A stretch of DNA of 20,626 nucleotides. It comes from an uncultured Lactobacillus sp. (GTDB lineage Bacteria > Bacillota > Bacilli > Lactobacillales > Lactobacillaceae). The position numbers and the translations under genes are program-made. Shown here in pieces: positions 2,963 to 18,061 of this stretch. How positions within the stretch are numbered: the first letter of the stretch is position 1; each line of letters opens with the position of its first letter. The stretch lies in assembly GCA_945281075.1 (NCBI GenBank), contig CALYQE010000020.1, positions 1 through 20,626 on the forward strand, given 5' to 3'. The notes beneath the pieces were generated by a model that saw only the letters and a list, made by a program, of their open reading frames with translations, did not search any database and had not been told where the DNA came from.

Positions 2963-3919
2963 TTGAAGAAACTAAAGCATAAGAAGCTGTGGCTAACCAT
3001 AGCAGTTATGGTGGTGTTAATTTGTGGGGCATTTGTTGGTGCGGGAACTTATTTCTTTAAAATGGCCTGCGTTCCGGGCCCCAAAAGTTTTTTGAGTTCT
3101 TCGAGCGATAAACTTAAAAAATCTGATCCACTGTACAAGGAAAAAATTTGGTTCAAGAAAGCTACCAAGCACAAATGGTATATCCAGTCTGCTGATAACA
3201 AGTATAAACTAGTTGCAAATTACCTTCCAAGTCATAACGCGAAAAAATCGGCGATCATTTTACCCGGCTATATGGATACGAAGGAAGACATGGCCGAATA
3301 TGATGCGTTATTTCATCAACTGGGCTATAACACTTTAACACCGGATCCGCGCGCACAGGGGAAAAGTGAGGGTAAGTATATTGGCTATGGCTGGCCTGAA
3401 AAAGATGACGTCAAAAAGTGGCTTGATCTTTTGCTAAAACGAAATGGTTCTGACCAGCAAATCGTGATTTACGGCTTAAGCATGGGTGCGTCGACAGCCA
3501 TGATGGTCAGTGGCCTCAAACTTCCGCGGCAAGTAAAAGCATTTGTAGAAGATTGTGGCTATACAAATGTCAAAACTGAAATTGAGCATGAAGCTAAAGC
3601 ATTATACAATATGCCAGCTTTTCCGCGTTTTCCACTTGTTGAAATCCTGAGTGGCATTAACAAACTTAAAGTTGGCTACTTTTTAAATGATGGCTCAAGC
3701 GTGACCCAGTTGCGTAAAAACCATCGCCCAATGCTGTTCATTCATGGCGATCACGACACTTTTGTGCCAACCAAGATGGTCTATCAGAATTATCGGGCCA
3801 GTCAGGGACCAAAAGAATTGTGGGTAACTTCGAACTCCAAACATGCCAAGTCGTATGCGGATCATCCGTGGCAATATCGGTGCCGGATTGCAAACTTCTT
3901 AGCCAAATATGTCAAATAG
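2963..3919 (+). CDS. Membrane-anchored alpha/beta-hydrolase
   Basis: A serine hydrolase of the alpha/beta-hydrolase fold, probably an extracytoplasmic esterase or peptidase-like enzyme held by an N-terminal anchor (hydrophobic stretch LWLTIAVMVVLICGAFVGAG). Counted from the longest in-frame start (GTG 2951), the triad is S177 in GLSMGAS, D269 in HGDHDTFVP and H298 in SKHAKSY; the oxyanion region is LPGYMDT (104-110). I place the start at TTG 2963, not GTG 2951, because the AAAGGTGG ribosome binding site lies about 8 bases before TTG 2963 and itself contains GTG 2951; this gives 318 residues. The nearest general relatives are the FrsA/YqkD-like hydrolases. The substrate is unknown. Confidence 0.85.
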   Translation: MKKLKHKKLWLTIAVMVVLICGAFVGAGTYFFKMACVPGPKSFLSSSSDKLKKSDPLYKEKIWFKKATKHKWYIQSADNKYKLVANYLPSHNAKKSAIILPGYMDTKEDMAEYDALFHQLGYNTLTPDPRAQGKSEGKYIGYGWPEKDDVKKWLDLLLKRNGSDQQIVIYGLSMGASTAMMVSGLKLPRQVKAFVEDCGYTNVKTEIEHEAKALYNMPAFPRFPLVEILSGINKLKVGYFLNDGSSVTQLRKNHRPMLFIHGDHDTFVPTKMVYQNYRASQGPKELWVTSNSKHAKSYADHPWQYRCRIANFLAKYVK

Positions 3920-15816: not shown

Positions 15817-16527
15817 ATGCAAGTAGAACACATTAACGAAAACACTATCCGTGTCAGAATTGATAAAACGGAATTAGCTAAGCGCGGCTTAAAAGTTCTT
15901 GATTTGCTGGGCGACAAGGATAGGATCCAACAATTCTTTTATTCAATTTTGGATGAAATTGATACAGATCATTCATTCAGTCAGGATGCACCGGTTACTT
16001 TTCAAGTAATGCCCAATAATGGTGGACTTGATTTACTGATCACTAAAACTACTGAAAAAGATCGCGACAATCTTGCTAAGCTATTCGATAACGATTTATC
16101 GGAAATCAAGCGCGAAAATGAGGCTGATTCGCGGAAGTCATTTTTGGATTTAGAAGATGATGATTTTTCAGGGCAAGAAGAAAACGGCGTCAAGCCGAAA
16201 GTTAAAAAACCGCTCTGGAAGTTTCAGAAAAAGCAAGCATACAGTTTCACCGACTTTAACGATGTAACCGAGCTGGCCGAGAGTTTAGTTACCGCCGACC
16301 TGTCTTCTAGTCTTTATTTTGAACGTGGTCAATTCTATCTGGATCTTACTTTTCCTGATGAAAACTATTCGGAATTAAAGCCTGCTGATGCTTGGACAAT
16401 TGCCAATGAATATGGCTCAAAGGTGAAGCCTTTGGCAATGGGGAGAGTGCGTACGACGGGAAAATGTCTGATGGAAAGCAATGCATTAGAACAGCTTCGT
16501 CATTATTTCGGAAATATCAAGCATTAA
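15817..16527 (+). CDS. mecA: Adaptor protein MecA
   Basis: MecA brings substrates (ComK/ComS in Bacillus, ComX/ComW-linked factors in streptococci) to the ClpC unfoldase for degradation. The 236 residues show the two-part family layout: an N-terminal substrate-binding domain opening MQVEHINENTIRVRI and an acidic hinge (about 95-125, DSRKSFLDLEDDDFSG). The C-terminal Clp-binding domain begins near KKQAYSFTDFNDVTELAESL, continues through SSLYFERGQFYLDLTF and ends HYFGNIKH. GGAGGTGA lies about 7 bases before the ATG. It is followed by its own terminator and then the coiA remnant, the usual mecA-coiA order. No Clp gene other than clpE is in this window. Confidence 0.94.
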   Translation: MQVEHINENTIRVRIDKTELAKRGLKVLDLLGDKDRIQQFFYSILDEIDTDHSFSQDAPVTFQVMPNNGGLDLLITKTTEKDRDNLAKLFDNDLSEIKRENEADSRKSFLDLEDDDFSGQEENGVKPKVKKPLWKFQKKQAYSFTDFNDVTELAESLVTADLSSSLYFERGQFYLDLTFPDENYSELKPADAWTIANEYGSKVKPLAMGRVRTTGKCLMESNALEQLRHYFGNIKH

Positions 16528-16542
16528 CTGAATAAATTTGAT

Positions 16543-16570
16543 AAAAGGCAAACGTAGGCTTGCCTTTTTT
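16543..16570 (+). terminator. Terminator after mecA
   Basis: AAAAGGCAA (16543-16551) pairs with TTGCCTTTT (16560-16568) around an eight-base loop, followed by T. It starts 15 bases after the mecA stop and ends 28 bases before the coiA start. Confidence 0.85.
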
Positions 16571-16597
16571 GCGTATTTAAAACTAGGTGATGGTTTT

Positions 16598-17446
16598 ATG
16601 TATGCTGCATTTTTAAATAATTAATTAGTTTCTGCAATTAGCCAGATTAAGGTAAATGAGCAGGATTCGCGCAAAATAACTAAAGCGCATTATTTTTGTC
16701 CGCATTGTCAGCAGGAAGTTTGGCTGGTCACTAAAAAGCAAACAGCTTATTTTAAACATGTGCCAAGGATCAGCAACTTAACAAATGAGAAAAAAGAACA
16801 CGCTTTGGGTAAAAAACTTTTAAAGCAGGCGCTAATCGATGCTAAATTTCCAGCCCGAACAGAGGTCTCATTAGCTAATGGTCAATTAAGAGCTGACGTC
16901 TTGGCTAGCTCAACTTTAGCATTTGAGGTGCAGTGCGCACCTTTAAATAAATCTGAATTTAGACATCGTCATCATTTGTATCAGCAAATTGGAATAAAAG
17001 ATGTTTGGGTAGTGGGGAGACGTCATTTTTTGGTGCATAATCTCAAAAAAACACAACTTATTTTCTTTCGCGAAAATAAGTTGTGGGGTGATTATTATTT
17101 AGAAATAGATCCGGCCCAGGCGCTTTTACGTTTGAAATATCACGTTTTGCTTGAGCCGATTACGAGTCGGGTGCACTATCAAAGTGCTAATTTTAAGCTG
17201 AATAGTCAAGGTTTAGCAACTTTATGGCATTTTCATCCGCATTTTAAAATTTATCAAGTTAATCCGCTTGTGCAAAAAGATTTTTTACAAGTACAACTGG
17301 CACAAAAAACGGCTTTGGGACTGAAAATCGGTGCTGAACTTTATGATCATCATCTAGCTAGCACCGATTTGCCTGAGTGGGTGTTTGAGCGTTTTCGCCG
17401 CGTTGACAGCGAAGATAGCGCTTCAACGTTTTTACATCAAGCGTAA
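16598..17446 (+). pseudogene. coiA: coiA (competence protein CoiA), interrupted by a nonsense codon
   Basis: CoiA promotes recombination of incoming DNA in streptococcal competence and carries a PD-(D/E)XK nuclease-like domain. The natural start is ATG 16598, preceded by AGGTGATGG, but the ninth codon is TAA (16622-16624). The same frame is then open to 17446 and encodes the family's expected parts: a zinc-finger segment YFCPHCQQEVWLVTKK ending in YFKH (16691-16759), a long helix, then the nuclease core RADVLASSTLAFEVQ with its Asp and Glu-x-Gln. No ATG, GTG or TTG lies in frame between the TAA and GTG 16760. Restart there would give 228 residues without the zinc finger and has no good ribosome binding site. 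The gene is probably inactive unless the TAA is an assembly error. Confidence 0.82.
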
Positions 17447-18061
17447 ATGTCTGGAAGAAGGCTGATAGTCTTCATTTTCTACAAGCGGTTTTTGACCAAT
17501 GGTGCTTTTAAACAGGCGGACAAGTTTATCTTGGGAAATGATACCTTCCAATAAAATACCACTGTGATTATTGTTGTCGTTAAAAATGACGGAAGTAGGA
17601 ATATTATGGACATTAAATTGTCGTACCAGTTCTTTATCTTGCTTAATTGATTTATCAATATATTGACTGATCTTCGAATTGCAAATCCGTTGATATTCGA
17701 GCCCTAGGTCAACTGCTACTTGTTCCGGAAGGTACTGCGAATAAACGCTAAAATCTTTACAGATGGCTTTTTGTAATTTAACGAGATAACAACGTGCTTT
17801 TTGATTACCGTACACAAATTTGATTGCATGGTAATTGCGCAAAGCCTGAAATGAAGCCATGGTATATTCCGGAATATCATTAATAATCTGACCATTGGTT
17901 TTTCTTCTAACGATATCCTCTTTAATGACCTTCGAATTGGTGACGGGAATAAAATGAAAGCGTGACTTTACATCCAGCTCGTCAATTGTTTTTTTAATTA
18001 AGACCTCGGTGTCATAGCAATACATGCCAATTGGGTTGACAAAAAGAAATAACTCAAACAT
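17432..18061 (-). CDS. spxH: SpxH/YjbH-like protein (DsbA-fold adaptor)
   Basis: In Bacillus and Staphylococcus this family helps ClpXP degrade Spx. The 209 residues show the DsbA-like fold with a helical insert: NPIGMYCYDTE near the start (residues 9-19), a long helical middle (SFQALRNYHAIKFVYGNQKARCYLVKLQKAI) and the late thioredoxin segment VHNIPTSVIF with a cis-Pro. The C-x-x-C of many relatives is reduced to G-M-Y-C, so no disulfide can form there. GGAGGA lies eight bases before ATG 18061. The CYTH gene is upstream on the same strand, 91 bases away. Its 3' end overlaps the coiA frame by 15 bases, tail to tail. The family call rests on fold motifs and gene context. Confidence 0.78.
   Translation of the reverse strand: MFELFLFVNPIGMYCYDTEVLIKKTIDELDVKSRFHFIPVTNSKVIKEDIVRRKTNGQIINDIPEYTMASFQALRNYHAIKFVYGNQKARCYLVKLQKAICKDFSVYSQYLPEQVAVDLGLEYQRICNSKISQYIDKSIKQDKELVRQFNVHNIPTSVIFNDNNNHSGILLEGIISQDKLVRLFKSTIGQKPLVENEDYQPSSRHLRLM

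Follow-up and report, generated by a model that had tools for sequence, protein, structure and literature searches.

The coiA gene of an uncultured Lactobacillus sp. is interrupted by a TAA stop at its ninth codon, in a frame that is otherwise open and conserved. The gene lies on a contig of 20,626 nucleotides, whose whole length we refer to as the window. We consider it probable that the stop is a real nonsense allele of recent origin, present in one strain. The frame and the features that define it are these:

16598 to 17446, forward strand: coiA frame, broken at codon 9 (reading of the sequence, Pfam and relatives)
16585 to 16590, forward strand: putative coiA ribosome-binding site, AGGTGA (direct reading)
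16622 to 16624, forward strand: premature TAA, codon 9; a stop here in 0 of 67 assessable relatives
16697 to 16708, forward strand: CPHC, a CxxC motif 3' of the stop; both cysteines in 67 of 67 relatives
16787 to 17224, forward strand: CoiA nuclease-like domain, PF06054 (CoiA_nuc); Pfam match after the stop

Direct reading of the frame places the start at ATG 16598-16600 and the terminal TAA at 17444-17446. Between the premature stop and the terminal one lie 273 sense codons (16625-17443), and an open run of this length would be expected by chance with a probability of about 1e-8 at the base composition of the window. The first-pass annotation had described an ATG at 16598 with a good ribosome binding site, a TAA at 16622 as codon 9, and then more than 270 open codons that include the nuclease core of CoiA. 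These coordinates and the codon number are correct, AGGTGA does precede the ATG, and the stretch after the stop matches PF06054 with an E value of 5.9e-17 (62.7 bits, against a cut-off of 20.3). GG-rich sites like AGGTGA are also visible ahead of the coiA start in relatives, as seen in a listing rather than counted. The N-terminal CxxC region, CoiA_N (PF25164), scored 20.6 bits in the DNA after the stop, which is below its cut-off of 26.3. The CPHC at 16697-16708 is presumably the first half of the zinc-finger-like motif of CoiA. Besides the PF06054 match, a nearly identical intact protein from another assembly (P0001, described below) supports its identity as coiA. The curated NCBIfam models gave no families for the coiA piece of the window, and they gave none for the intact P0001 either, so this blank says nothing about the break. 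A frameshift or a switch to an alternative frame at the stop was ruled out: both sides of it read in one frame, and neither of the other two forward frames is open there. With TAA at codon 9, the product is not full length.

A search of the genus found coiA in 70 of 75 Lactobacillus genomes, including the genome of the window. We kept one locus per genome, and L001, which is the same as the Lactobacillus apis locus L003, was left out of all counts; this one relative, L. apis, came from a scan of genome contigs. The N-terminus could be assessed in 67 of the 69 relatives, the other two being cut by contig ends. All 67 share the same start position, as ATG in 43 and TTG in 24, so the normal start of coiA lies upstream of the stop. 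Judged by this alignment, ATG 16598 is the true start, and the idea that members of this family normally begin downstream is ruled out. Column 9 holds a sense codon in all 67, with K, Q, E, T, V, N, R, and I all occurring there. The comparison with relatives at codon 9 came out in favor of the annotated break.

The conservation of the gene continues on both sides of the stop. Tyr2, Ala4, Val11, and Ala13 are invariant in the relatives whose N-terminus is present; Y32, C34, P35, C37, F52, and H54 are invariant in 67 to 68 relatives; and D100, E110, and Q112 are invariant in the nuclease-like domain. The coiA DNA of the window keeps C34, C37, and H54. Of the 50 columns that are at least 97% conserved in the relatives, residue 63 is the one at which the window departs, as does the intact P0001.

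As a side observation, the CoiA of L. xylocopicola (P0052, 242 amino acids) is listed from an internal start; upstream of it, a TTG frame is open and encodes the usual N-terminus in L008, a locus whose contig is equally long. With 24 of 67 relatives starting at TTG, short CoiA annotations like P0052 may be common.

The region upstream of coiA is also kept. In 64 of 70 loci, including the window, mecA lies upstream of coiA on the same strand, and in the window the two genes are separated by a hairpin and a promoter-like box:

15817 to 16527, forward strand: mecA, negative regulator of competence, intact (PF05389, E 2e-46)
16543 to 16577, forward strand: hairpin and T-run after mecA, running into a competence-type box, TTTTTTGCGTATT, at 16565-16577

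Within the box, the TTTTGCGTA part begins about 30 nt ahead of the coiA start in the window, and the box begins 27 to 34 nt before the start in 58 of the 68 loci, one of them the window. The short box by itself is common by chance, at about 6 per window, so the evidence is its fixed place. In 60 of the 68 loci, that of the window among them, no more than 6 nt separate the end of the hairpin from the CGTA-like core of the box, as compared to 0.24 expected from shuffled upstream bases; the core pattern in this count is permissive, and the genomes are related, so that the loci are not independent. This arrangement suggests that across most of the genus, the terminator of mecA and a competence promoter of coiA share one T-run, and we infer that the box is read by a sigma factor of the ComX/SigH type. 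By eye, similar boxes precede comEA, comGA, and dprA in the window's own genome (G000), and comEA, comGA, and comFA in G006. In Streptococcus mitis, TTTTT is described directly before TACGAATA, 22 nt ahead of the ATG of coiA (PMC6001120), and SigH-dependent promoters are described for the coiA, comG, and comE operons of Listeria monocytogenes (PMC4754846). A promoter and terminator scan found no sigma-70 promoter before coiA. The same scan missed the mecA hairpin, probably because part of the T-run is assigned to the stem under its rules. Rfam had no matches in the window at gathering thresholds, and in the literature searched, no title or opening of an abstract reported this arrangement of mecA hairpin and coiA box.

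A protein database contains an intact version of the gene. P0001 is a full-length CoiA of 282 amino acids that is 99% identical to the stretch in the window. At the protein level, at which the two were compared, they differ at three residues: codon 9 (glutamine in P0001, stop in the window), codon 42 (R in P0001, W in the window), and codon 71 (S in P0001, G in the window). P0001, whose cluster has 6 member sequences, is found on one contig of 13,008 bp, which is therefore different from the 20,626-bp contig of the window. The neighboring genes were compared as well. MecA P0135 is one residue off the MecA of the window and is found on 2 contigs, the longest of 13,008 bp; given the equal size, this and the contig of P0001 are probably the same one. 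On the other side of coiA is a convergent gene whose 3' end overlaps that of coiA:

17432 to 18061, reverse strand: gene for a DsbA/YjbH-like thioredoxin-fold protein, intact (PF13743, E 5.7e-21)

P0112 is identical to this protein; of the 3 contigs that carry it, the longest has the size of the window, 20,626 bp. Given the 99% identity and the neighboring proteins, the assembly with P0001 very probably belongs to the same species as the window. With P0001 intact in a second assembly, the stop is one of at least two states of coiA in this species.

It had been proposed that coiA was lost recently, through a single C-to-T change from CAA to TAA. The recent loss gained support from the start shared by all 67 relatives and from P0001. 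The single change, if the base call is right, is compatible with the data, since the reading frame continues unshifted across the stop and P0001 has glutamine at this codon. The near-invariant residues and the competence-type promoter that the gene has kept imply either that the change is very recent or that the consensus is wrong.

The main alternative is that the stop is an error of consensus or assembly, arising from low coverage or a mixture of strains, and that the coiA of the organism is intact. We consider this possible, though clearly less likely than a real allele. The window belongs to a fragmented draft that looks metagenome-derived (188 contigs, 76% complete, 3.25% contamination), in which comEC is split between contigs, and an intact allele, P0001, does exist in another assembly. 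Also, the three differences from P0001 all fall in the first 71 codons of coiA, and at every one of them it is the window that is atypical: besides the stop, its W42 is seen in none of 68 relatives and its G71 in 5 of them. A bad patch of consensus or mixed strains could give such a cluster. However, the stop is not an indel, since the reading frame runs on unbroken before and after it. In addition, 15 other genes of the window have open frames that match Pfam, as do com genes located on other contigs. The single difference in MecA is ambiguous as evidence on whether the window holds a natural haplotype or an error. The three nearest relatives of this protein (P0136 to P0138) carry K at residue 85, in agreement with P0135 from the other assembly, but the N85 of the window is the commonest residue, in 102 of the best 119 of 416 relatives, many of which are nearly identical to each other. 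Finally, another species of the genus, with a genome in a single contig (G021), has an independent nonsense codon in coiA, a TAA at codon 57 (L062), just past the CxxC/FxH region, so losses of this kind do occur. We therefore still favor a real, recent nonsense allele in one strain. If the loss is real, it has left no other trace in the gene, except perhaps W42 and G71. A second copy would be another matter, and only one match to coiA was found in G000, a draft that is 76% complete.

The first-pass annotation had also allowed that translation might restart after the stop or read through it. We consider it very unlikely that a shortened CoiA is still made by restart, or that the stop is read through. 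The first in-frame ATG, GTG, or TTG past the stop is GTG 16760, at codon 55, and a restart there would give a product of 228 residues that has the nuclease-like domain, with PF06054 wholly inside it, and lacks the CxxC region. One fusion of MecA and CoiA without the CoiA N-terminus (P0091) does exist, but it is one sequence on one contig. No ribosome-binding site was seen in the 20 bases before GTG 16760, neither restart nor read-through has support, and the residues that a restart would give up are constrained, including the six invariant ones from Y32 to H54. The 477 amino acids of P0091 join MecA in frame to a CoiA that starts at about residue 50, and the fusion is either a deletion between the neighboring genes or an assembly artefact.

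The remaining competence genes of G000 were examined for further breaks. The genes comEA, comGA, comGB, and dprA, and those of two pilin-like comG proteins, have open frames with Pfam matches, and the frame that holds a prepilin peptidase domain is open as well. The comFC gene is open, with family matches that fall short of the curated cut-offs, which holds for each of the 10 genomes tried. Three smaller comG frames were named by their position against L. apis only. The comEC gene is open across two contigs: it runs to the end of C84, and its last 108 codons are on C157. Of comFA, the draft contains the final 66 codons only, at a contig edge. As far as could be tested, a general loss of competence in this genome is ruled out: the com genes that could be judged are open, and comFA is too partial to judge.

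One oddity of the second comEC contig (L088, on C157) is that the 3' end of comEC is duplicated, at 1349-1433 and 3636-3720 (85 nt, 93% alike). The duplicates flank a protease-like gene of 655 amino acids (Pro-kuma_activ, E 1.7e-12), which lies between comEC and a DNA polymerase III delta gene.

Across the genus, 60 genomes reach a completeness of 90% or more with contamination of 5% or less, and coiA, comEC, and dprA were each found in all 60. Breaks in coiA could be judged in 67 of the 70 loci (two are cut by contig ends and one has a run of N), and three are broken: the window, G021, and G002. The remaining 64 are unbroken in the sense that the aligned part has no stop or frame break; in some loci the alignment ends 8 to 25 residues early. 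The stops at G051 and G055 are the normal ends of coiA. In G002 (L069), the break is a frameshift at about codon 150, near a lysine-rich, A-rich stretch, and the rest of the gene continues in another frame. For comEC, which had matches in 74 of 75 genomes (several of them partial at contig edges), the main match has one apparent TAG in G027 and one apparent TAA in G058. The main match to dprA is free of stops in 73 of 75 genomes; G018 and G067 each give two separate matches instead of one, and a stop lies in an additional dprA fragment of G073. Loss of coiA in the genus is recurrent but rare. That coiA is lost more often than other com genes is suggestive only, as the counts are too low for a comparison. 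The annotation had linked the stop to the rarity of transformation in lactobacilli; with coiA unbroken in 64 of 67 judged loci, its bearing on this question is weak.

CoiA is described as essential for recombination during transformation in pneumococcus, with its exact role unknown (PMC9352194), and in Bacillus subtilis it is described as gathering at one pole together with the uptake machinery (PMC2727465); a further source describes coiA as present (PMC3640971). The gene in the window resembles the CoiA (PF06054/PF25164) of Streptococcus and of Bacillus (YjbF) in its nuclease-like D100, E110, and Q112, its CxxC cysteines, and its competence-type box, but unlike theirs, its frame ends early, at the TAA of codon 9. 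Another parallel is Streptococcus dysgalactiae, for which some isolates are described with disrupted coiA, comEC, dprA, or other genes (PMC11288034). There, as here, one com gene is broken while others of the species are intact; in contrast, our case is a Lactobacillus draft with one nonsense codon and no panel of isolates. The loss of single com genes in some strains is thus already known, and the window is another example. In a study of the SigH regulon of Lactobacillus sakei, the com genes were present and inducible and transformation was undetected (PMC3364868); in the available text of that paper, coiA does not occur, and conditions and strain dependence are spoken of instead. No coiA nonsense allele in Lactobacillus was found by title or opening of abstract, which says little, with subscription papers mostly outside the search.

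In the reading that we favor, the gene is a true ortholog of coiA whose ninth codon was recently turned into a stop by a point change in one strain, while the species elsewhere keeps coiA whole. Translation would end after 8 residues, so that neither the CxxC region nor the nuclease-like domain would be made. Cells that still express the uptake machinery would be expected to take DNA in and recombine it poorly, as is described for pneumococcus without CoiA, and the gene would be too newly broken to have decayed. More speculatively, strains with coiA on and coiA off might coexist, and those with the stop might run DNA uptake for food or nucleotides without recombination, so that one codon would uncouple uptake from transformation; we consider this improbable.

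For annotation, the case is a caution: the sole genome of this species in the genus set would label the species as coiA-negative, despite an intact allele. For the biology of the organism, if the base is right, this would be a natural loss of a late step of transformation while the genes for uptake stay whole.
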